Part shown: piece by piece, positions 34,254-48,931 of the stretch
Position numbering within the stretch: position 1 is the stretch's first letter
Layout of the letters: every line of letters begins with the position of its first letter
NCBI RefSeq assembly: GCF_900168255.1
Contig: NZ_LT799838.1
Coordinates: forward strand, 2,418,001 to 2,482,000
Direction: 5' to 3'
DNA length: 64,000 nucleotides
Source: Psychrobacter sp. DAB_AL43B
GTDB taxonomy: Bacteria > Pseudomonadota > Gammaproteobacteria > Pseudomonadales > Moraxellaceae
The notes under the pieces: model-generated
Seen by the model: the letters and a program-made list of their open reading frames with translations, nothing else
Databases searched by the model: none
Told to the model about the DNA's origin: nothing
Translations under genes and position numbers: made by a program

Positions 34254-37200
34254 TTAGATAATATTGGCAATCTCAGTATCAATATAAATCTGAGAAGAAG
34301 AATTACTATCTACTTGCCATACATTATATTCCTGTCCTTCATTATCTTTAACAGTCTGTTGTGTATTAACCCATCCATTCCCTTGCAGATCAACCGTATC
34401 ATCACTGTTACCTTTAACATAAATCGGGTTTGACGCTCCAGAGTTGATAATATCCCCATCACTGATATTCAAGGTATTGGCTCCTGTTCCGCTAATATCG
34501 ATTATCTCATTTTCAAAGATATCCGATAAGCTTATAGACTGACCTGCTCCGCTCAAATTGAAAGTATTAAGCTCTTCACTCAGATTAATTAATGGTGAGT
34601 CATAGGTATCATCACTGATATTAATAACATCCTCACCAATCGCTCCAATACTGAAGTTTGCTATACCAGCGCTTTCTACTTGCCAATTGATACTGCCTAA
34701 TAACTCATCAAGATCAGTAGCCGTTATTTGCAACATCGCTTCATATTCAGCATTACCATTACGATCCACCATGAGCACGCCACTTTCATAAGCAAGGTAG
34801 TTACCGATATTTCCAGCCGTTTGATTGCCATCAAGCAAACCAGCAATATCGATTTTATCGCCTTGTGTAGCGTTAAAGTCGGTCCAGTTATCAATGCCAT
34901 TGTTACCGTTACCGCCCTTAGTATCACCTAGGTTGGTAAAGATTACTGTATCAGCGCCTGCGCCCATAGTGAAACTATCATCTGCAGCAGAGCTGGTGAC
35001 ACTGTCATCATAAACAGAGGCAGTGATTGTTTTACCAACGTTAATCTCTAAATTAGCGGTTTCTTTTACGCCAGTCACAGAAATAGTTTCATAGGTAAAG
35101 TTTTCAATCCCATACGCTTCACCATTTGGTAGATAGCTATAACTACCATCTTTATTAACAGTTAAGGTTCCGTACAAACCTTCGATATCAATTGATTTGG
35201 CACCTTGATTTGGATCACTGACAAATACAGACTTACTACCAACTTTGAGCTCAGAGACGTTATCTATGCCTGTATCATTATCAAGTAGCAATCCGGTTAC
35301 TGGGTTAAACGTCGATCCCTTGAACTCGTCTGTATGTACTAAATCGACGACGAATTGATAGCCTTTAATATTCCCACCTGCAAAACCGCCGCTAGTGACA
35401 ATATTAATCTTATATGCACCAGCGGGCAGATCATAAATAGTGTCATTCAGAGACTGGCCTTTATCGCCAGATACTTGCTTTGTAAAAACCTCGCCAGTCG
35501 TGGTATTGGTTAGCGTGTAGGTTACGTTCTTAGCACTACTTTGAACATTAATCGTCGCTGATGCCACTTTATTGGAACCAATTTCAAACGTTTCTTCCAT
35601 CGTGTTACCGTGGTTGCCTACCGCTTTATAGTCACGATTGTACTGAATGTCAGAAGTGACGTTTTGCTCATTTACCGTTGCCTCATTAAAATCATTAGTA
35701 GCAGTATGAGTGCTAATCTTAATATTTAAGGTTTCAACAGCAGCTTTACCATTTGCGTCTTTAGTCACCAATCTAAATGAGTCAACTTCACCATAGGGTG
35801 GCTTCCAAGTAGGGTTATTAGAATTATTATCAACACTATAGGTGTACTCCCCATTTGCATCAATTGTGAGTTGTCCGTACTTACCTTGATAAGTCACTGG
35901 TGCGCCTGAAGTGACAGACTCTTCGCCAACTTTGAGTATCACGGTACCAGCATCAGGGGTGGCATCACCTTCAATCTGTCCCGTAAACTTAGAAGGTATG
36001 TTGTAATCATAGATTGTATCGCGATCTACATATAAGCCATTACCACTAAGAAGTCCTAGTCCACCAGCTGTTAGTAAAACGGCCTTATAATCTCCTTCAC
36101 CAAACTGTAAAGTCAAAGGATCCGATTTTCCACCAAGGAATGGAACATTGAACCAGTTTTTTTCAAAATGTACTTGGACATACTGTCCTGTATTTTCATC
36201 TAGCTTGTAAACGGCCATACTATAAGTTTTTGCAATATCTACTCCGCCACCACTACCATGTAAGGTAAGCTCACGCATTTGATTATCACCAACCGTGAAT
36301 TCAAGTGGCGGCTTGCCTCCTAGTAGCTCAAGATCCAGCACTGATGACGATCCAAAACTTAAGTCAAGAACCCCAAAACCCACCGCATCTTTAATGGCGG
36401 AATCCTTCGTATCTAAGATTACTGTTGGCTCAATATCAACAACGAGGTTCTCATCTACTTTAATCTGCTGATCAACAGGAAGGATGTTTAATTGAATATT
36501 AAGGTCTGCAGAAGCGGTATTACCGTCAGGTGATGTAATAGTATAAGTGAAGCTCTCCTCACTGCCATAAGGTCCGCGGAAATCTTCATTAATTTTATAC
36601 TCATAAGTACCATCAGAAGATATGGTTAATGTACCGTATTGCCCCTGAATGACATTGCTTCCTGTTTCAATCTCTTGTACACCATTAAAAGAGGTGATTG
36701 AAGTAACTGTTGTACCGCCCGGCAGTTCATCGTAACTAAAGTTTGAGTCATCACCTGCTAAGATATCTCCTGTCACTGAACCACTGACCGCTGTTGCTTC
36801 GGAATAGTCTAAAACGACATCTTTTTTAAACTCTAATGTATAACCGGTCAGCGCCGAGATGCCTTCACCACCGGACATGACAAATAACCATTGCCCTTCA
36901 TCTAAACTAAACTTAGTATCTTTGGACACACCACCTAGTAAATAGGACACCACCCAGTTCTCTTTTACTTCCTGTATTTCCCACTCATTAGTAGATTCGT
37001 TTAATTTATACAGACTTAGATCCATTGTACCAACAACTTGTATACCGCCAGCATTACCTTTAACGGTCACTTCACGGACTTGATCTTCGCCTACCTCTAG
37101 TACCACTGAGTTGTTGACAACGTTAGCAACAACGCCTGCACCTAGTACAGGGCCTAAACTTGCACCAACAACGGTAAAGCCAGTCTTATCCAAGTCTGAT

Positions 37201-39041
37201 GGTTTCTCATTTTCTGTTCGTGATGGTGTAGCATCTAGTTGGAAATCAACAAAGTTATCTGCAGCAGCGATAATTTCATCTGTGTTGACGGTATAATCTT
37301 TTGTGGCATTTACAGTACCGGTGTTACCCGCTTTATCCGTTGCGACAATACTAATTTCAATAATCGCATCAGCATCTGCCACAAGCTCAGTACCTGGAAC
37401 GTCAATACTAAAATTACCATTGACATCCACTGTACCGGTATAGTCAATACCATTGACGGTAACCGTCACGACATCGTCTAGCGTGAATTCACCCGACACG
37501 GTGCCCGTAACAGCCACGTCTGCCTCTGATTCTGCTTTGTTAATTACGTTGTCAGCAGTTAAGTCATTGATAGTAATCTGGGTGCTGATATCGTCAGGAG
37601 CAATCCTGTCCACCGTATAATCTTTAGTGCTGCTCACACTACCGATGTTTCCAGCTTGATCAGTGGCAGACACGCTCACTTCAATGATCTTATCAGTATC
37701 TGCCACTAGAGCAGTACCTGGAACGTCAATACTGAATTTACCATTGATATCAACGGTACCGGTATAACCAGTGCCATCAACCATCACTGTCACGACATCA
37801 CCGACTGTGAATTCACCCGACACTGTGCCGGTCACTGCCACGTCTGCTTCAGATTCTGCTTTGTTGATGGTGTTGTCATCAGTTAAGTTGTCAACAACAA
37901 CGGTGGTGGTTGCTGCTGTAGGCGCGTCTGTGTCCACTGTATAGTCTTTAGTGCTGCTCACAGTGCCGATGTTTCCAGCTGCATCGGTCGCAGCAACGCT
38001 CACTTCAATGAACTTGTCAGCATCTGCTACGAGCCCAGTACCTGGAACGTCAATACTAAAATTACCAGAAAAATCTACTTTGCCTGTATAATTAATACCG
38101 TTAACTTTTATCGTTACAGTGTTTCCTTCACTGTAATCACCAGAAACTTTACCGGTAATAGCAATATTACCTTCAGCCTCTATAGCATTAATAACGTTAT
38201 CGGCCGTTATGTTATCAACGATAATCTCAGTAGTATTATCATCAGGAGCAACGGTATCAATAGTAATAGTAACGCTCGTACCAGTGAGATTGCTTGCAGT
38301 GGTTGCTGTCAGCTTTTCTGAACCTTCACCCATAGCAGTAATGTCGTCTTGATTGACAGGAATGCTCCATTTATTATCGGCACCAACAATAGCAGTACCA
38401 ATAATCTCACTAGCTTCATTTTTTAAGACAATGGTATCGTCTGCCGTACCAGTACCTGTCACATTAAAACCAGTATCCGCTTCTTCAGCATTGACAATAT
38501 TATCACCAGCAATTGGAGAGGTAATCGTTAATTCCGTAGCCGGAACAATGGTAATATCGGCGGTCTCAGAATTCACGTTACCGGCTGGATCTTTAGCAGT
38601 GATCGTCAAAGTTTCTAGCCCGTTACCCATCGTAGTAACATCTTCTGGAGCGACCGCAATAGTCCATTTACCATTAGCGCCTACAAAGGCAGGACCAATC
38701 TCAACCTTAGTATCTGTTCCGTAAGTTAAGGTAATCTTGTCACCAGCTGTACCAGTACCCGTCACGTTAAAGCCTTTTTCAGCTTCTTCAGCATTGACAA
38801 TGTCATCGCCTGCGATTGGTTTATCGACTGTTAGTAGAGCGATGGTATCTACCGTTACTGTTACTGCAGGCGCAGCTTCACTCACGTTACCAGCAGCATC
38901 TTTAAGGTTGTAGCTTAAGCTATGATCACCATCGGTAAGGGCTGTTTCTGGTGTTAAAGTCACGGTGTTATCTGGGTTGGTGACTGAAGTCGATGGCACA
39001 ACTTTGCCATCAATTACCAACTGCGGAGTGCCATTAGCCAC
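34254..39041 (-). CDS. Bap-type giant adhesin, C-terminal part after a frameshift
   Basis: 1,595 codons continuing the adhesin begun at 41175, in another frame. In order: the end of one Ig-like module, two modules of the type PIAGDxIVNAEEA, three modules of about 105 residues (DNTINKAESEADVAVTGTVSG) ending TKDYTVD, and two related beta-rich modules with VCBS-like ends (GQYGTLTISSDGTYEYKI; GKYGQLTIDANGEYTYSV). The C-terminus is of the type I secretion class (SFTMGAGADTVIFTNLGD, WTDFNATQGDKIDIAGLL). No good ribosome-binding site precedes the apparent GTG at 39041. On its own this part would lack the N-terminal anchoring region. Confidence 0.85.
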   Translation of the reverse strand: MANGTPQLVIDGKVVPSTSVTNPDNTVTLTPETALTDGDHSLSYNLKDAAGNVSEAAPAVTVTVDTIALLTVDKPIAGDDIVNAEEAEKGFNVTGTGTAGDKITLTYGTDTKVEIGPAFVGANGKWTIAVAPEDVTTMGNGLETLTITAKDPAGNVNSETADITIVPATELTITSPIAGDNIVNAEEADTGFNVTGTGTADDTIVLKNEASEIIGTAIVGADNKWSIPVNQDDITAMGEGSEKLTATTASNLTGTSVTITIDTVAPDDNTTEIIVDNITADNVINAIEAEGNIAITGKVSGDYSEGNTVTIKVNGINYTGKVDFSGNFSIDVPGTGLVADADKFIEVSVAATDAAGNIGTVSSTKDYTVDTDAPTAATTTVVVDNLTDDNTINKAESEADVAVTGTVSGEFTVGDVVTVMVDGTGYTGTVDINGKFSIDVPGTALVADTDKIIEVSVSATDQAGNIGSVSSTKDYTVDRIAPDDISTQITINDLTADNVINKAESEADVAVTGTVSGEFTLDDVVTVTVNGIDYTGTVDVNGNFSIDVPGTELVADADAIIEISIVATDKAGNTGTVNATKDYTVNTDEIIAAADNFVDFQLDATPSRTENEKPSDLDKTGFTVVGASLGPVLGAGVVANVVNNSVVLEVGEDQVREVTVKGNAGGIQVVGTMDLSLYKLNESTNEWEIQEVKENWVVSYLLGGVSKDTKFSLDEGQWLFVMSGGEGISALTGYTLEFKKDVVLDYSEATAVSGSVTGDILAGDDSNFSYDELPGGTTVTSITSFNGVQEIETGSNVIQGQYGTLTISSDGTYEYKINEDFRGPYGSEESFTYTITSPDGNTASADLNIQLNILPVDQQIKVDENLVVDIEPTVILDTKDSAIKDAVGFGVLDLSFGSSSVLDLELLGGKPPLEFTVGDNQMRELTLHGSGGGVDIAKTYSMAVYKLDENTGQYVQVHFEKNWFNVPFLGGKSDPLTLQFGEGDYKAVLLTAGGLGLLSGNGLYVDRDTIYDYNIPSKFTGQIEGDATPDAGTVILKVGEESVTSGAPVTYQGKYGQLTIDANGEYTYSVDNNSNNPTWKPPYGEVDSFRLVTKDANGKAAVETLNIKISTHTATNDFNEATVNEQNVTSDIQYNRDYKAVGNHGNTMEETFEIGSNKVASATINVQSSAKNVTYTLTNTTTGEVFTKQVSGDKGQSLNDTIYDLPAGAYKINIVTSGGFAGGNIKGYQFVVDLVHTDEFKGSTFNPVTGLLLDNDTGIDNVSELKVGSKSVFVSDPNQGAKSIDIEGLYGTLTVNKDGSYSYLPNGEAYGIENFTYETISVTGVKETANLEINVGKTITASVYDDSVTSSAADDSFTMGAGADTVIFTNLGDTKGGNGNNGIDNWTDFNATQGDKIDIAGLLDGNQTAGNIGNYLAYESGVLMVDRNGNAEYEAMLQITATDLDELLGSINWQVESAGIANFSIGAIGEDVINISDDTYDSPLINLSEELNTFNLSGAGQSISLSDIFENEIIDISGTGANTLNISDGDIINSGASNPIYVKGNSDDTVDLQGNGWVNTQQTVKDNEGQEYNVWQVDSNSSSQIYIDTEIANII

Positions 39042-41175
39042 TTTGATCAGCAGGAACGATCACACTTGGGGTGTTGTCGTTAGTGACGCCACCAGAAGCA
39101 ATCATTTCAGCAGGGTCTAGAACATCGCCGCTGCCATCGTTAGCAACGTTGTCTGTAATAACAGGGGCGTCGATTGGGTCAGTTGGGGCGGTGATGTCAA
39201 CCACACCAACACTTTCTGTCAATTCCTCTGATTTGTTACCAGCAACGTCTTTAATGCTCGCAGTTATGTCCAGCGATTCGCCTTCTGCTGGTGCAGGGAC
39301 TTTAACAGTGACTTCTTTTGCATTGATATCTGCTGGCGTTAAGACTTTCTCAACACCGTTAGCCACGACGGTGTCACCTGCAACGGCATTGGCTGGAAGG
39401 CCTATGACAACGTCTACATTGCCGTCAGCATCAATCTCAGCAGCATTCAGGAATTCATCACCATTACCAACCACGATACTGGTTGGCTTACCTGGAGCAA
39501 TGGTGTCAACAGTGATATCAACAGGTATACTTGGAGCACTGCTGTTACTTGCTTTGTCTGTTACGGTGGCAAAAACACTATAGTCACCATCTTCAATAAT
39601 ACCACCTGGACTATTTGGAATGGTGACGGCGGCAACGCCAGCTATTGCTTCAGGACCAGTTACAATATGGGTAATCTCTACTGGATCGCCATCACCGGTT
39701 GGGACAACCGTTATGGTAATAGTGTCACCTTCTAATGTACCGGTTGGTAAGGTGACTTGGGTTTTAATACCATTTGCAAGCTCTTCCGCATTGACACCGT
39801 TTTCCGCTTCTGGAATGGCAATGACTGGAGCAACTTGATCTGCTCCTTCTTGACCACCAGGCGCTGTGGTGTCTTCTGCCACAATATCAGTAGGTTCAGA
39901 CTTATTCCCCGCCGCATCAGTTGCCGTCACAGTGATGGTCTCACCATCAACTAATGGTGTCTCACTGGTGTCAATCTTATAGTTACCATCGTCATCAGCA
40001 GTCACGGTGTAATCAGGAACGCCGTCACCATTGATATCAACATTAACAGTAGCGCCAGGCTCAGTACTGCCTGTGATAAGCGTGCCTTCAGGGTTGATCT
40101 CAGCGGTTGGTGCATCAGGAGCGGTAGTATCTTCTGCCACAATATCAGTAGGCTCAGACTCATTCCCCGCCTTATCCGTTGCCGTCACAGTGATGGTCTC
40201 ACCATCAACTAATGGCGTGTCACTGGTATCGACTTCATAGTTGCCATCATCATCGGCAGTCACGGTGTAGTCAGGAATGCCGTCACCATTGATATCAACA
40301 TTAACAGTAGCGCCAGGCTCAGTACTGCCTGTGATAAGCGTGCCTTCAGGGTTGATCTCAGCGGTTGGTGCATCAGGAGCGGTAGTATCTTCTGCCACAA
40401 TATCAGTAGGCTCAGACTCATTCCCCGCCTTATCCGTTGCCGTCACAGTGATGGTCTCACCATCAACTAATGGCGTGTCACTGGTATCGACTTCATAGTT
40501 GCCATCATCACCGGCAGCCACGGTGTAATCAGGAACGCCGTCACCATTGATATCAACATCAACAGTAGCACCAGGCTCAGTACTGCCTGTGATAAGCGTG
40601 CCTTCAGGGTTAATCTCAGCGACTGGGGCATCAGGGGCGGTGGTATCGACTGGTGGTTTACTACCATTATTATTACTACTACCGCTGCTACCTAGAGCCG
40701 CACCTAATAGTCCTACGCCCGCAAGACCCACTAACCATGGCAATGCATTAAAACCTTCTGTTTCCGTCGCGCCTATCCACCAAGGAGCAATCTGTGGATT
40801 TCCACCCAGCGCTTGGCCTTGTATATCGCCTGTTTCTAACTCGGTGACATAGTCTGCCACTTCACCTGAATCAGGAATGTAATAGTAATAGCTACCATCT
40901 TCTGCCATGCCTAGAAGTGCGCTGTCGATATCATCGTAAAACCCTTCAATAATAAGATCGGGATTTTCACTATCGCCTTCAAACGAGACATGAAGGTCTT
41001 TATCTATTCGTTTGGTAATAATGTGGTTTGGAGCGTGACCCGTCGATTCATCAAGTAGCTCATAGTTAATTTTATCAACGGCTTTGATTATTGTAGGTTT
41101 GCCATCTTGGGTAACAACTTTGTGCTCAGTAATAGTTTTTATTTGGTCATTTACTTTAACGGTGATAGTGCTCAT
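39034..41175 (-). CDS. Bap-type giant adhesin, N-terminal part
   Basis: 713 codons. The N-terminal domain (1-140; ITEHKVVTQDGKPTII, EDGSYYYYIPDSGEV) is the BapA-type prefix. A hydrophobic stretch LPWLVGLAGVGLLGAALG (145-162) comes next, then three nearly identical 86-residue Ig-like modules (178-435), each with a DINGDGxPD calcium-type loop, then further Ig-like modules. The AAGGA ribosome-binding site supports ATG 41175. The frame stops (TAA) right after PADQSG, while the next frame continues the same module with VANGTPQLVIDG. One extra base or two lost bases near 39040 would explain the split. It follows an OmpA-like lipoprotein gene by 63 bp. Confidence 0.88.
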   Translation of the reverse strand: MSTITVKVNDQIKTITEHKVVTQDGKPTIIKAVDKINYELLDESTGHAPNHIITKRIDKDLHVSFEGDSENPDLIIEGFYDDIDSALLGMAEDGSYYYYIPDSGEVADYVTELETGDIQGQALGGNPQIAPWWIGATETEGFNALPWLVGLAGVGLLGAALGSSGSSNNNGSKPPVDTTAPDAPVAEINPEGTLITGSTEPGATVDVDINGDGVPDYTVAAGDDGNYEVDTSDTPLVDGETITVTATDKAGNESEPTDIVAEDTTAPDAPTAEINPEGTLITGSTEPGATVNVDINGDGIPDYTVTADDDGNYEVDTSDTPLVDGETITVTATDKAGNESEPTDIVAEDTTAPDAPTAEINPEGTLITGSTEPGATVNVDINGDGVPDYTVTADDDGNYKIDTSETPLVDGETITVTATDAAGNKSEPTDIVAEDTTAPGGQEGADQVAPVIAIPEAENGVNAEELANGIKTQVTLPTGTLEGDTITITVVPTGDGDPVEITHIVTGPEAIAGVAAVTIPNSPGGIIEDGDYSVFATVTDKASNSSAPSIPVDITVDTIAPGKPTSIVVGNGDEFLNAAEIDADGNVDVVIGLPANAVAGDTVVANGVEKVLTPADINAKEVTVKVPAPAEGESLDITASIKDVAGNKSEELTESVGVVDITAPTDPIDAPVITDNVANDGSGDVLDPAEMIASGGVTNDNTPSVIVPADQSG
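39871..40644 (-). repeat. Three near-identical 258-bp coding repeats in the adhesin
   Basis: Each unit encodes 86 residues starting TTAPDAP and ending DIVAED. Units differ by a few bases only (for instance VAAGDD versus VTADDD). Near identity at the DNA level allows copy-number change by recombination and is also a risk for assembly errors. Confidence 0.93.
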
Positions 41176-43387: not shown

Positions 43388-43748
43388 ATCCCTATAAAAA
43401 CGAAGGCTTCTTAAGTTATAAAGTAAACACTTAAAAAATCAGTTATATGGCTGTTAAAGTATTGTTCACTAACAGTTTTTATAATCTTATTTTAAAAAAT
43501 TTATTCATAAACGAACCTAAGTCGACTTTATTTACTAATAACAATGTTCAATAAAATTCATTCTTTTACTTATCAACCTAATTATACAAATCGTTAAATA
43601 ACGTTAGCTATTTTTTTCCTTAGGTTAAAAAAATAAAGTCACCAATTGACAGATAATTAAACTCTGTTAGAATCTGTAACACGACTGTATTGTTTTACAG
43701 TCTAATTATTGTAATTAAAGAATAACTAACAAATAGGAAGGGAATCAC
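43388..43748. other. Region upstream of the Roadblock-BLUF-GTPase operon
   Basis: About 360 bp of AT-rich DNA. Its right end carries the promoter at 43646-43673 and a 5' leader of about 65 nt. No gene seen. Confidence 0.5.
43646..43673 (+). promoter_or_regulatory. Sigma-70 promoter of the light/GTPase operon
   Basis: A perfect TTGACA (43646-43651) and TAGAAT (43668-43673) with a 16-bp spacer. Transcription would start near 43680, leaving a leader of about 65 nt before the first Roadblock gene. Confidence 0.78.
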
Positions 43749-44108
43749 ATGGCGAGTATCGATGCTTCTTTACAGGAATTAATGACACTTGACGGAGCTA
43801 TGGGAGGTTGTGTAGTCGACTATATGTCAGGCATGGTTTTGGGTTCTATTGGCTCAGGAGTAGACTTAGAACTAGCAGCTGCTGGTAATTCACAAGTCGT
43901 AAAAGCAAAAATGGAGACAATGAAGTCTCTTGGCATCAACGGTGGTATCAATGATATTTTGATCACCCTTGATACACAGCTTCATATTATTCGACCAACA
44001 CCTAAGCATCAGGATCTATTTATTTATCTTGTACTTGATAAGGCTAAAGCAAACTTAGCTTTAGCACGCCGCAAAGTGCAATCAATAGAAGATAGTATCG
44101 AAATATAG
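43749..44108 (+). CDS. Roadblock/LC7-domain protein, first copy
   Basis: 119 residues covering one Roadblock/LC7 domain: LQELMTLDGAMGGCVVDYMSGMVLGS, followed by ELAAAGNSQVVKAKMETMKSLG and the strand-helix end IRPTPKHQDLFIYLVLDKAKANLALARRKV (quoted here in parts: LFIYLVLDKAKANLALAR). Such proteins (MglB is the model) dimerise and bind small GTPases, often as GAPs. An AGGAAGGG ribosome-binding site lies 7 bp upstream. First gene of a four-gene operon containing a GTPase and a BLUF photoreceptor. A hairpin in the 155-bp gap after it may set its level apart from the later genes. Confidence 0.85.
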   Translation: MASIDASLQELMTLDGAMGGCVVDYMSGMVLGSIGSGVDLELAAAGNSQVVKAKMETMKSLGINGGINDILITLDTQLHIIRPTPKHQDLFIYLVLDKAKANLALARRKVQSIEDSIEI

Positions 44109-44115
44109 ATTTGTT

Positions 44116-44168
44116 AAAATATTTCTGTTAATAAGCTGTAAGAGCAGTTTTATTAACAGGGATATTTT
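44116..44168 (+). terminator. Hairpin in the operon after the first Roadblock gene
   Basis: Nested inverted repeats AAAATATT / ATATTTT, CTGTTAATAA / TTATTAACAG and a GCTG / CAG tip form one long stem-loop, followed by ATTTTATTG. It starts 8 bp past the stop of the first Roadblock gene. It is AT-rich and lacks a full T-run, so partial termination or a transcript-processing/stabilising role is likelier than full termination. Confidence 0.5.
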
Positions 44169-44263
44169 ATTGTGCCTATTAGGGTACATAACAGTGAACT
44201 GGGCTGTGCTCAGTTATTACTTAATGACTTTTTTAGAATTTTAGCAAGGATGCGAGGGGCGAA

Positions 44264-45031
44264 ATGAAATGTATTGCATACGTCAGTGAAGTGCCTCTTA
44301 CTAATGGTGGTGTTCGTCTACCTGTTGGATTGTCAGGCATAGTTAGAGCTTCTAACAGAAATAAAGCATCCGATATAACCGGCTTTTTATGCTACCGCCA
44401 TGGATACTATATTCAGGTTATTGAAGGGCCTGATAGAGAAGTAAGTCAGCTGGCATCGAAGATAGAAGTTGACTCTAGACATGAAAATTTTCGGGTTTTC
44501 ATTAATAAACGTATTTCTGAGCGATGTTTTCCAGATTGGAGAGTAAATGTCTTCGATTTTATAGATCAAAGTCCTTTATTTAAGCAATTCATTACGGGTT
44601 ATAGAGCAGAAATAGCCAATCTTACTGAAGCGCAGAAACTACCTATCCAATACTTCCACGATTTAAGCTCTATACCTGATTCAGACCATTCAAATATCAA
44701 TTCTAGCCAAAGTTATGAAGGTAAGAACCTAAGGTTACTTGCTTGGCCTGATTTCAATCTTATTAATCAGTCGCAAATGATTATAGATTTATGCGTCAAA
44801 CTAACCAAACAACCTTATTCATTCGACCAGTTGCTTGATGATGATCAACTGGGTACACGTGAACATATCATCACAACCCTCGAAAAATTTGACGCACTGG
44901 GAATATTGAAAGTGACAGAATCAGAGTTGCTGAAAGAACCAGAACAACCAAAAGAACAAAAACCAGAAACACAGACAAAAAAACCTAGTAGTTTTTATGG
45001 CGCTATCAAAAAATTTCTAGGAATGAGGTAA
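44264..45031 (+). CDS. BLUF-domain blue-light receptor
   Basis: 255 residues. A BLUF flavin-binding domain (about 1-95) has the three residues of the photocycle: Y6 (CIAYVSE), N33 (ASNRNKASDITGFLCY) and Q51 (YYIQVIEG). N-to-Q spacing is 18, as in AppA. The family's C-terminal W/F region appears as FPDWRVNVFDF. The remaining 160 residues have no recognised output domain: a helical middle and a Pro/Glu/Gln/Lys-rich linker to a basic C-terminus. It lies between a Roadblock protein and a small GTPase, 3 bp before the latter, so it probably signals by protein contact. It may sense temperature too, as some BLUF proteins do. Confidence 0.88.
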   Translation: MKCIAYVSEVPLTNGGVRLPVGLSGIVRASNRNKASDITGFLCYRHGYYIQVIEGPDREVSQLASKIEVDSRHENFRVFINKRISERCFPDWRVNVFDFIDQSPLFKQFITGYRAEIANLTEAQKLPIQYFHDLSSIPDSDHSNINSSQSYEGKNLRLLAWPDFNLINQSQMIIDLCVKLTKQPYSFDQLLDDDQLGTREHIITTLEKFDALGILKVTESELLKEPEQPKEQKPETQTKKPSSFYGAIKKFLGMR

Positions 45032-45034
45032 AAA

Positions 45035-45568
45035 GTGGACTATCAAAAATTAGCAATTATTGGAGAAGTTGGTGCTGGGAAAACTCAGATAATCGAAACC
45101 CTAAGCGAAATCAGTCCTTTTGGTACAGAAGCAAAGTCCACTATTGATATAGGTAAAGAATATACAACAGTGGGTATTGACTACGGGCGTATTACGCTTT
45201 CTGACAGTATGGCGCTGGGTCTTTATGGCGTTCCAGGACAGGAGCGTTACTCCTTTTTATGGGAGTTTGTGAATAACTCTCTTTGGGGACTGCTTATTCT
45301 TATCAAGTACGGGGAAACTCCCAACTATGATAATCTAGACAAAATGCTAACTTTTTTTGATCCAGAGAAAAGTCAAACTACTTGCATTGTTGCAATAACA
45401 CACTGCGAAGACGCTGATGAGTTTGACCTAGCGGTCCTTGGTCAAGAAATAAGAACTATGTTGATGCACCATAAAGTTGTTGCTCCAGTTATCAATATTG
45501 ATCCTAGGAGTCGAGAGTCTGCGACATCCCTTCTCGTCTTATTTAATGCACTTAATAGTGAAAAATAA
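45035..45568 (+). CDS. MglA-like small GTPase
   Basis: 177 residues. P-loop GEVGAGKT is at 10-17, switch I probably includes TT44-45, the switch II/G3 region is VPGQERY (66-72; Asp of DxxG replaced), and the base-recognition motif is THCED at 122-126 instead of NKxD. These deviations are usual in the bacterial GTPases paired with Roadblock proteins. It starts at GTG 45035, 3 bp after the BLUF stop. A Roadblock partner follows after about 30 bp. It probably acts as the nucleotide-dependent switch of the operon, regulated by one or both Roadblock proteins. Confidence 0.85.
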
Positions 45569-45597
45569 TTTTAAATATGATTATGCCTAATGGGAAA

Positions 45598-45981
45598 ATG
45601 AATGTGAAAACAGAACTGTTAAAGTCCATAAAAGAATTGTGCGAGAGTAATAAAGAAATTGTGTTAGTTAGCTTATGTACAACTGATGGATTTCCGATAA
45701 CGTATTTATCAATAGATGAGTTAAGTGCTGAAGCTGACAAGATGGCAGCAATAAGTAGTACTCTTGCGGCATTAAGCAATTCATCTGCTCGTCAAATGAA
45801 TCAAGGTGAATGCGATATTACTATCATTGAAGCATCATCTGGAAATATGCTATTTGTTACAGCCAACTATTTAGGAACACCTTGTGTCCTCACTGTTGTA
45901 GCAAACACAAAGATGACATTAGCAGAAGCCAGATATAAAACAAAAAAACTTACCGTTTCTATTGCTCAAATATCTGAATGA
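45598..45981 (+). CDS. Roadblock/LC7-domain protein, second copy
   Basis: About 127 residues. ELLKSIKELCESNKEIVLVSL, DGFPITYLSIDELSAEADKMAAI and SGNMLFVTANYLGTPCVLTVVA form one Roadblock/LC7 domain (quoted in parts), with a C-terminal helix containing KMTLAEARYKTKKL. It is only distantly like the first copy, so the two may form a heterodimer or have different jobs. Start uncertain: ATG 45577, ATG 45598 or GTG 45604. A GGGA at 45591 fits the later ones. Last gene of the operon. Confidence 0.83.
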   Translation: MNVKTELLKSIKELCESNKEIVLVSLCTTDGFPITYLSIDELSAEADKMAAISSTLAALSNSSARQMNQGECDITIIEASSGNMLFVTANYLGTPCVLTVVANTKMTLAEARYKTKKLTVSIAQISE

Positions 45982-46326: not shown

Positions 46327-47502
46327 ATGAAAAACTCAGTTCAAACTACGTTAAATCGAGTGGGACTTACCGCTTTAGTGGTAGCGTCATTAATATCTGG
46401 AGCGGTGCAAGCAGCAGACAGTCATGATCGTCTAAAGAGTGCAGTTGATCAGCAAGCCAAACTCTTAATGGATGAGCATAATATTCCAGGGATGTCCTTT
46501 GGCGTCATTATTGATGGTAAATCGTATTTTTATAACTATGGTTTGGCTGACAAAAAAGCCCACAAACCTGTGTCAGAAAACACTATCTTTGAATTGGGCT
46601 CTATCAGTAAAACTTTCACTGCAACCGCTGCCAGTTATGCGGAACTCAATGGCCAGCTGTCACTAAATGATAGCGTGGATAAATATATCCCTTACCTAAA
46701 AGATAGCCCGATCGGCAATACCAAGCTAATAAACCTAGCCACTTATACGGCTGGTGGTCTACCGCTTCAAGTGCCTGATGAGGTTAAAAACAATAAAGAG
46801 TTACTCCGCTATTATAAATCGTGGCAGCCTGTCTTCTCAGTAAACTCAACGCGTCTGTATTCCAACGCCAGCATCGGGCTGTTTGGTTACATCTCTGCAT
46901 TAAGTATGGGCTCTGATTACACATCGCTAATGGAAAATAAAATACTGCCGTCACTCAGCATGCCAAATACCTTTGTTAATGTTCCTAGTGATAGAAAGGC
47001 GGATTATGCGTTTGGCTATAACGCTGCTGGAGAGCCGATAAGAGTCAATCCCGGCATATTGGACGCCGAAGCCTATGGTATTAAATCAACCAGTGCAGAT
47101 ATGACGCATTTCATGGCGGCGAATATGGGGCTAGTGCCGTTGGATAAAGATATTCAACAAGCGTTAGATAATAATAGAAAAGGCTATTATCAAGCGAGCA
47201 CTTTTATACAGGGATTAGCGTGGGAGATGTATCAGTTTCCAACAAAGCTAGAGACACTGCTTGAAGGCAATTCAGCGGAGGTGGTGCTTAAGCCTCAGAC
47301 AATTACGACAGATAATCATCCAATACCTATTTTAAATAACGTATGGGTCAATAAGACTGGCGCTACCAATGGTTTTGGCGGCTATATCGCTTATATTCCT
47401 ACTAAAAAGACAGGTATTGTCATCTTAGCAAATAAAAACTATCCTAATGCAGATAGAATCAAAGCAGCGTATACCATCTTAGAAAGTGCGATGACTCATT
47501 AA
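46327..47502 (+). CDS. ampC: Class C beta-lactamase (serine)
   Basis: Periplasmic enzyme hydrolysing beta-lactams, mainly cephalosporins in this class. It is 391 residues with a signal peptide ending near VQAADS. Catalytic motifs are S92-I-S-K95 (ELGSISKTF), Y178-S-N180 (LYSNASIG) and K343-T-G345 (VNKTGATNGFG), all in place. LATYTAGGLPLQVPDEV is also typical of AmpC. No divergent ampR gene is present, so expression is probably constitutive and low unless changed by nearby insertions. An IS3 element lies 52 bp downstream. Native AmpC-type enzymes occur in this bacterial family. Confidence 0.94.
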   Translation: MKNSVQTTLNRVGLTALVVASLISGAVQAADSHDRLKSAVDQQAKLLMDEHNIPGMSFGVIIDGKSYFYNYGLADKKAHKPVSENTIFELGSISKTFTATAASYAELNGQLSLNDSVDKYIPYLKDSPIGNTKLINLATYTAGGLPLQVPDEVKNNKELLRYYKSWQPVFSVNSTRLYSNASIGLFGYISALSMGSDYTSLMENKILPSLSMPNTFVNVPSDRKADYAFGYNAAGEPIRVNPGILDAEAYGIKSTSADMTHFMAANMGLVPLDKDIQQALDNNRKGYYQASTFIQGLAWEMYQFPTKLETLLEGNSAEVVLKPQTITTDNHPIPILNNVWVNKTGATNGFGGYIAYIPTKKTGIVILANKNYPNADRIKAAYTILESAMTH

Positions 47503-47586
47503 TTGAACATGAGTGATAAAATAGCATTATAAATCATTAAGAACCCAGCTAGATTGAACTGAGCCCCAAATGTTGGACGGTTTAGT

Positions 47587-48482
47587 TTACCCCAAGGACT
47601 GAGTTCTGTACTGCACAGGACTCAGTCCTTTCAGTTTCATCTGAATACGCTCATTGTTGTAATAATGAATATACTCGTGAATCTGTTGTTCTAAATCCTC
47701 AATCGTTTGAGGTTTTTCAATATAAATCGTCTCACACTTAAGTGTCCCGAAGAACCCCTCCATCAGTGCGTTATCTAAGCAGTTGCCTTTTCTGCTCATA
47801 CTTTGCTTAATACCATGCTGTTTAAGCACCTGTCCAAACTGTCTCAGTTGATAATGCCATCCTTGATCAGAGTGCAGCATTAGTGCCTTATCGCGACACG
47901 CTTTAGTCTTTGCTAAAGCATCATCAAGCATCTTACTAACTAAGTCATAGGTCGGGCGCCTTGAGAGCGTATAACTGACGATCTCATTGTTATAACAATC
48001 GAGTATAGGCGATAAATACAGCTTATTATCACCCACCTTAAACTCAGTAATGTCAGTGAGCCAGCGTTTATGCGGATGACCTGAATAAAACTGGCGCTTT
48101 AAATGATTCTTCGCGATTTTACCTTGTTGTCCTTTATAGGAGCGGTACTTCTGACGTCTTATCTTTGCGCTAAGCTTCATTTGACGCATAAGCTTAGCAA
48201 TGAGCTTATGGTTGTGATGAATCCCTAGGTACTTTAACGCGGCCGTGACTCTACGGTAGCCATACCTGCCTTTATGCTGATGGTAAAGCTCAGTTATTCG
48301 CTGTTTCAAATCAGCGTACTTATCGTCACTCTCAAGCTTTGTTCTATGGTAATAAAAGACGCTTTTAGGCAGACATGAGGCTTTAAGTAAGTCAGATAAA
48401 CAACAGCTATCCCTTAGTGCTTCGATGAGCCTTGCTTTGTCACTGCTTGTTCCTTTTGTTTGAGCAAGGCATCTAGCTTTTT
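47587..48482 (-). CDS. IS3-family transposase OrfB (integrase part)
   Basis: About 297 residues when read from the frameshift site. It includes an HTH_21-type helical region (HKGRYGYRRVTAALKYLGI) and an rve integrase core with Asp in TDITEF, Asp in LHSDQGWHY and Glu in NALMEGFFGTLK, ending in GLSPVQYR. The frame has no good independent start. It opens out of orfA at the A-AAA-AAG heptamer (48477-48483), so it is made as an OrfAB fusion by -1 frameshifting. The catalytic part is intact. Confidence 0.9.
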
Positions 48483-48931
48483 TAGGTAGGCAACCTCCGC
48501 ACGTAGGTATTCATTCTCACGTTTGAGTTCTGCTAGTGTTTTTTCATCATCTGGTTTGTCGGTAATAAATGGCTTGGTCATGGCGGTTCTACCTTTACGT
48601 TTGGATATTAGTCCAGACATGCCATAAAGCCGATACGCTTTGTGCCAATGACAATTAAGGCAGGTGAGCTGATGTTGAACGTTAAAGCGACCTCGGATTG
48701 ACTTAATCCTTGCTCTAACATGGTCGTAATCACGTGATGTTTAAACTCGCGACTATAGTGAGCTTTACTCGACTTTGGCTTGATGGCATCTATGCCACCG
48801 CTTTGGTATTGCTTAACCCATTTTTGTACAAGTTTCGAATCTACTTTAAACTTCTCACTTGTGGCAAGTCCGGTATGTCCTTGCCGATAGTATGCGATGA
48901 CTTCGATCTTGAAGTCTAGTGTGTAACGCAT
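48414..48931 (-). pseudogene. IS3-family OrfA (helix-turn-helix), frameshifted
   Basis: The first frame (48931 to 48608) encodes the insE-type HTH: DFKIEVIAYYRQGHTGLATSEKF, then QWVKQYQSGGIDAIKPKS (in part) and a second HTH. After SSPALIV the frame is wrong. Skipping by one base gives WHKAYRLYGMSGLISKRKG and the rest of OrfA (leucine-zipper-like LAELKRENEYLRAEVAYLKKL) to 48414. A one-base deletion near 48655 explains this. The element probably cannot make normal OrfAB on its own. Confidence 0.85.

Follow-up and report, generated by a model that had tools for sequence, protein, structure and literature searches.

Can a small Ras-like GTPase of a bacterium be placed under the control of a photoreceptor that is encoded directly beside it? 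This question is raised by a locus in the window, by which we mean the whole stretch of 64,000 nucleotides of Psychrobacter DNA that was analysed. A sequence-only reading of this DNA had proposed an operon composed of a Roadblock protein, a BLUF protein, a small GTPase and a second Roadblock protein, and this composition is right: all four plus-strand genes, encoding R1, the BLUF protein, the GTPase and R2, are confirmed by the window's list of open reading frames (ORFs) and by the sequence (Table 1).

Gene order, spacing and distribution of the operon

Table 1. Features of the operon and of the encoded proteins, with positions in the window
Feature	Position	Strand	Description	Basis
Promoter	43646..43673	+	sigma-70-like, TTGACA-16-TAGAAT	read from sequence
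R1	43749..44108	+	divergent Roadblock-like protein, 119 aa	
Hairpin in R1-BLUF gap	44115..44169	+	25 pairs, one bulge	
BLUF-winged-helix protein	44264..45031	+	255 aa	
BLUF domain	44264..44545	+	residues 1-94, with Y6, N33, Q51 and W92	Pfam PF04940, E 9.4e-21
W-P strand and predicted winged-helix module	44711..44923	+	residues 150-220	AlphaFold2 E-H-H-H-E; homology to Group 3 partner C-terminus
C-terminal tail	44984..45028	+	residues 241-255, basic, amphipathic	
Small Ras-like GTPase	45035..45568	+	177 aa, GTG start, Group-3-MglA-like (VPGQ, THCED, DPR)	
R2	45577..45981	+	MglB/CvnB-type Roadblock protein, 134 aa	

The TTGACA-16-TAGAAT element that had been noted upstream of the operon is present. 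A conserved promoter was rejected, since a loose form of the pattern matches in two of 23 upstream regions of orthologues (two of them short), namely in the window's own and in one other at a different place. The four genes had also been described as tightly spaced, which holds for BLUF-GTPase (3 nt) and GTPase-R2 (8 nt) but not for R1-BLUF, where a gap of 155 nt contains a strong hairpin, so that only BLUF-GTPase-R2 is tightly packed. The whole R1-BLUF gap (44109-44263) gives a folding z of -4.73 against 200 dinucleotide shuffles, and eight of the 23 intergenic R1-BLUF gaps, among them that of the window, were folded; for seven of these, which differ in sequence, z lies below -2.4. The hairpin could set R1 apart in expression. 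Elsewhere in the window, two overlapping minus-strand ORFs of 1595 and 713 aa (34254-41175; 8-nt overlap, different frames), the latter with bacterial Ig repeats (Big_6), look like one large adhesin-type gene over two frames, and a Beta-lactamase-family protein (PF00144, E 1.9e-75) adjoins IS3-like transposase ORFs (rve, HTH_Tnp) at 46327-48931.

Conservation of the BLUF-GTPase-Roadblock neighbourhood had been proposed as a check, and the neighbourhood extends well beyond the strain. A search with the GTPase gave a match at E <= 0.001 in 153 of 299 genomes of the family, and 35 close copies (E 2.8e-88 or better; 77-83% identity, the window's own aside) lie in 30 genomes of the genus, the next-best match being at 4e-27 and 38% identity. 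Of 105 genomes of the genus, 104 gave some BLUF match when searched with a profile of the BLUF protein, and the 34 full-length matches (at least 365 bits), together with one partial match (212 bits), lie in the same 30 genomes as the GTPase. The BLUF protein is encoded directly upstream of the GTPase in 34 of the 35 pairs, the matched stretches being 6 to 9 nt apart, and the remaining pair lies on two contigs. All four genes are found in 23 of 30 compared loci, which represent the best GTPase match of each genome and no random draw; of the remaining seven, five are so short that contig ends seem to have cut them, one is without R2 (L007, and L004 where the same place was read further) and one is without R1 (L025). 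Two or three copies of the operon are found in several genomes. One of them has a tandem of two operons (L072) and another an extra copy on a 29.6-kb contig which reads as plasmid-like (L067), and these extra copies suggest mobility.

In the class, the GTPase search matched at 1e-8 or better in 63 of 369 genomes, and the close GTPases outside the genus came from one Arenicella-like genus (60-70% identity, four copies in three genomes), all four within R1-BLUF-GTPase-R2 units, with the GTPase of one locus (L108) placed by its coordinates. The four-gene unit is also carried by a contig of an uncultured Arenicella, and the whole operon lies on a 71.7-kb plasmid of Agarilytica rhodophyticola, where the GTPase has 70.7% identity and both R1 and the GTPase are annotated as hypothetical proteins. 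These data bear on the explanation that the BLUF protein and the GTPase are only co-transcribed neighbours acting separately. The uneven packing of the operon, with the R1-BLUF gap and its hairpin, would suit this explanation; adjacency of 34 of the 35 pairs in the genus with the last one on two contigs, the recurrence of this arrangement in another genus and on a plasmid, and the homology of the BLUF protein C-terminus to the usual partner of such GTPases (see below) argue against it and make it highly improbable. Purifying selection on the operon was computed, with a median dN/dS of about 0.04-0.06 for the GTPase, R1 (0.064) and R2, of 0.18 for the BLUF domain, of 0.17 for the winged helix and of 0.38 for the linker; pairs with dS outside 0.15-1.5 were dropped, and the median dS of 1.0 to 1.2 is near saturation.

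The GTPase and Roadblock proteins among known systems

The sequence-only reading had compared the operon with MglA/MglB-type pairs, which is appropriate for the kind of GTPase and Roadblock protein, but Group 3 MglA systems and actinobacterial conservons are closer than MglA/MglB of Myxococcus. Group 3 MglA systems occur across beta/gamma-proteobacteria, and the published hallmarks of their GTPase are a G4 motif without Lys, deviating from [NT]KxD, and D-x-R in G5, in operons of MglA with one or two MglBs and a receiver-like/winged-helix protein (Wuichet and Sogaard-Andersen, 2014; PMC4316618). The GTPase of the window, which matches Pfam Ras with E 2.5e-6, has THCED as G4 and thus no Lys, T and H being found in 11 of 11 BLUF-linked rows, and D156 and R158 of G5 are likewise present in all 11 rows with P (9) or A (2) between them. 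The clear Roadblock protein R2, the divergent Roadblock-like R1 and a partner with a winged-helix-like C-terminus, for which the core alone matches more weakly, are encoded beside the GTPase; Group 3 operons have one or two Roadblock proteins and such a partner. In contrast to these systems, the partner starts with a BLUF domain instead of a receiver-like domain and does not have the middle region, which makes the operon a Group 3 variant and no ordinary member. The GTPase clade is also set off by a long branch: the BLUF-linked GTPases (11 rows) lie on one side of it with support of 100/99 and in 200 of 200 bootstrap trees, in a tree without outgroup in which 61 of 124 rows were kept after removing >88% identity and for which the program warned of a long row meeting the branch of the BLUF-linked GTPases. 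Two further loci were observed. In a member of the class (L128, 3712-6744), an R1 with 65% identity to that of the window lies on the other strand and the partner is of a non-BLUF type, a possible intermediate. The other Roadblock cluster of the window's genome (L058, 4916-8192) is without the partner and GTPase genes that the related L057 and L075 have at the corresponding position.

The second Roadblock protein had been taken to be the divergent one; this order has to be reversed, since R1 has no Roadblock match of its own and the profile of R2 matches solved Roadblock proteins. R2 alone reaches Robl_LC7 with E 3.5e-4 (20.7 bits, just below the Pfam cut-off of 23), and the profile of R2 and its relatives matches solved Roadblock proteins with a best E of 4.7e-24, and CvnB5 with 6.5e-17, which marks it by sequence as a clear MglB/CvnB-type protein. 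For R1 alone, the Pfam search gave no Roadblock match. Robl_LC7 is matched by seven of 22 members of its family (best E 5.7e-4, the seven not being shown individually), the family profile meets a solved Roadblock protein with no better E than 0.021, and the profiles of R1 and R2 match each other with P = 1.4e-4 over 115 columns; R1 is placed as Roadblock-like only via its wider family.

The actinobacterial conservons (CvnA-D, MfpB-E) have in common with the operon a small GTPase with a Roadblock protein, here a putative GAP, and, beside the GTPase, a helix-turn-helix protein with a C-terminal amphipathic helix. Their sensor is a separate histidine-kinase-like protein, whereas here the BLUF domain is fused to the partner module, and one Roadblock protein was found in the conservon loci examined where R1 and R2 are found here. 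A CvnA-like histidine kinase was found neither among the listed neighbouring ORFs nor among the five scanned with Pfam. Further comparisons concern MglA/MglB of Myxococcus and Thermus, with a Ras-like GTPase and a Roadblock protein, here a putative GAP, in common and with known outputs in Myxococcus, and the short BlsA-type BLUF proteins of Acinetobacter, with the photoreceptor domain and the bacterial family in common. The former are not known to have a BLUF/winged-helix partner, the latter are not known to have a winged-helix/tail module, and PixD of cyanobacteria is not known to have an output domain. The G4 and G5 motifs of MglA in Myxococcus and Thermus are different ones (PMC4316618), and a Psychrobacter BLUF protein that was included in an earlier comparison does not group with the BlsA type (PMC3554667). 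In PixD-PixE the BLUF protein works by protein contact, as is proposed for the operon; according to the accessible part of PMC9090330, PixE is a PATAN-domain CheY-like regulator and phototaxis is affected through PilB1, and no small GTPase is described there in this pathway, which runs through PixE and PilB1.

The BLUF domain and the C-terminal module

When the model of the BLUF protein was compared with solved folds by Foldseek, all 50 matches listed were BLUF structures, and a second comparison with residues 1-134 only also matched solved BLUF proteins. The residues Y6, N33 and Q51, all of which the sequence-only reading had seen in the window, are widely kept: among 106 aligned rows, some of them near-copies and three of them fragments without BLUF, and counted over the rows that have a residue at the position, N33 is found in 103 of 103, Y6 in 98 of 99, Q51 in 99 of 103 and W92 in 102 of 105. 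Judged from these sequences, the protein probably binds flavin and is photochemically active. Q51 is replaced by E or G in four of 103 sequences, which may leave some members unable to sense light; two of the four belong to Arenicella-like copies near another BLUF gene. Such replacements would fit a BLUF domain that is a temperature or redox sensor, or an inert dimerisation scaffold, with a natural signal other than light, but the retention of Q51 and N33 at these frequencies while the domain drifts (dN/dS 0.18) renders this explanation unlikely. Two neighbourhoods of such genes were observed: in an Arenicella-like locus (L108, 1614-6434) an R1-BLUF-R2 unit without GTPase, in which Q51 is changed to G, lies beside a complete R1-BLUF-GTPase-R2 unit, and at L111 (4858-8031) an operon BLUF gene without Q51 is adjoined by a second BLUF gene, separate and divergent, with a product of 205 aa.

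The C-terminal part of the protein, in which no known output domain had been recognised and which had been guessed to be the GTPase/Roadblock interface, is not featureless: it holds the W-P strand, the predicted winged helix and the tail, and the interface guess gains support from the relation to Group 3 partners. By profile computation, this C-terminus is judged homologous to the module of winged helix and tail with which the partner proteins of Group 3 MglA end. The whole untrimmed BLUF protein matches the Group 3 partner profiles weakly (probability 11% and 4%), so trimming was needed; both trimmed sets, from which 9 of 76 partners without usable W-P and one of 26 class partners were dropped, were first anchored on W-P, which favours a match, and then re-tested without this anchor. 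With W-P and tail left out, the match of the winged-helix core was reached or beaten by two of 200 shuffles, and against the class-wide partners the hhalign probability was only 16%. Pfam gave no DUF742 match in the BLUF protein, and direct homology of its C-terminus to conservon DUF742 was rejected as not significant, 14 of 200 shuffles being as good. The C-termini of Group 3 partners match DUF742 over the helix-turn-helix with 0 of 200 shuffles as good and a probability of 11%; a GEF role of the BLUF protein would therefore be an analogy drawn via the Group 3 partner. Other sensor swaps were searched for with Pfam: 26 proteins upstream of class-wide GTPases gave no match at E 0.01 and 22 Acinetobacter-type partners gave only weak scattered matches (best E 0.0022), so that no input domain other than BLUF was recognisable in this sample.

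A predicted winged helix could also bind DNA. The BLUF-winged-helix protein would then be a light-controlled transcription factor, with the GTPase and Roadblock proteins controlling where or when the winged helix binds, in line with the published suggestion that Group 3 systems, whose partner has receiver-like and winged-helix regions, may regulate transcription (PMC4316618). A helix-turn-helix with amphipathic tail is, however, also found in the conservon CvnC/DUF742 proteins, which the conservon papers report as likely exchange factors. Light-controlled DNA binding is the main rival, if a rather improbable one, and light-controlled exchange is the likeliest mechanism.

A proposed light-to-GTPase switch and its significance

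The BLUF protein holds the slot of the Group 3 partner and keeps the W-P strand, winged helix and basic tail, and the receiver-like input of this partner therefore seems to have given way to BLUF. We consider it probable, with real room for doubt, that the operon is a light-input Group-3-type MglA/Roadblock unit with BLUF in place of the receiver-like domain and with the C-terminal output module kept. This module would comprise the W-P strand, the winged helix, a flexible linker and the basic amphipathic helix. Blue light, or temperature-driven loss of flavin binding, would shift the BLUF domain between two states, which would expose or hide the winged helix and tail and thereby let them act on the GTPase encoded directly downstream. 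The BLUF protein would most likely be an exchange factor or an exchange-regulating adaptor like the conservon protein MfpC, R2 would by analogy be the GAP, and R1 may be a second Roadblock partner, as heterodimer mate or scaffold; contact with the GTPase, GEF-like action and control of the nucleotide state would in this way set the output. In the conservon literature, the Roadblock protein MfpD/CvnB is the GAP and MfpC/CvnC is likely the GEF (PMC13343842, PMC13015309), with one figure legend of PMC13015309 swapping the two labels, and mfpC is stated there to be found only in Actinobacteria (PMC13015309).

The likeness to conservons and the same order of a DUF4388 protein, a GTPase and a Roadblock protein on a Thermus plasmid led us to propose a modular adaptor, consisting of input domain, winged helix and tail, that adjoins such GTPases and for which BLUF would be the input here. 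Tentatively, we put forward the possibility that a bacterial Ras-like GTPase has in the BLUF protein a natural GEF gated by light, which would have arisen by exchange of the input domain in a widespread modular G-protein adaptor. On the Thermus plasmid (L162, 3369-5498) the DUF4388-GTPase-Roadblock genes are followed by a protoglobin gene, a possible gas-sensing counterpart. Twitching, surface attachment or polarity, which the sequence-only reading had named as the output, gained no support from the analysis. Two PilT-family ATPases of the genome score over the cut-off and nothing ties them to the operon; no pilus gene lies beside it among the window's ORFs and the neighbours scanned with Pfam.

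The sequence-only reading knew of no described system with this composition. This stands in so far as the open literature, with most subscription journals outside the scope of the search, gave no description of a BLUF/GTPase/Roadblock unit, the terms co-occurring in the accessible parts of PMC9090330, PMC12724252 and PMC8993538 on different subjects, but the type of system was published in 2014 (PMC4316618), and the operon is a form of it in which the sensor is swapped. In the same literature, no paper was found that gives the input or output of Group 3 MglA systems. If our interpretation is true, this would be, within the literature covered, the first Group 3 MglA system with an identifiable signal, carried between distant gammaproteobacteria and in one case on a plasmid. 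The BLUF swap suggests that the input half of the partner protein is the N-terminal one, and with a photoreceptor as input, blue light would serve as a clean on/off switch for the pathway and as a route to its output. Coupling of light to G-proteins has so far mostly been engineered in optogenetics, and the operon would be a natural case of it: the conserved four-gene set of Psychrobacter and a small number of marine bacteria suggests that a Ras-like switch is controlled by light in nature.
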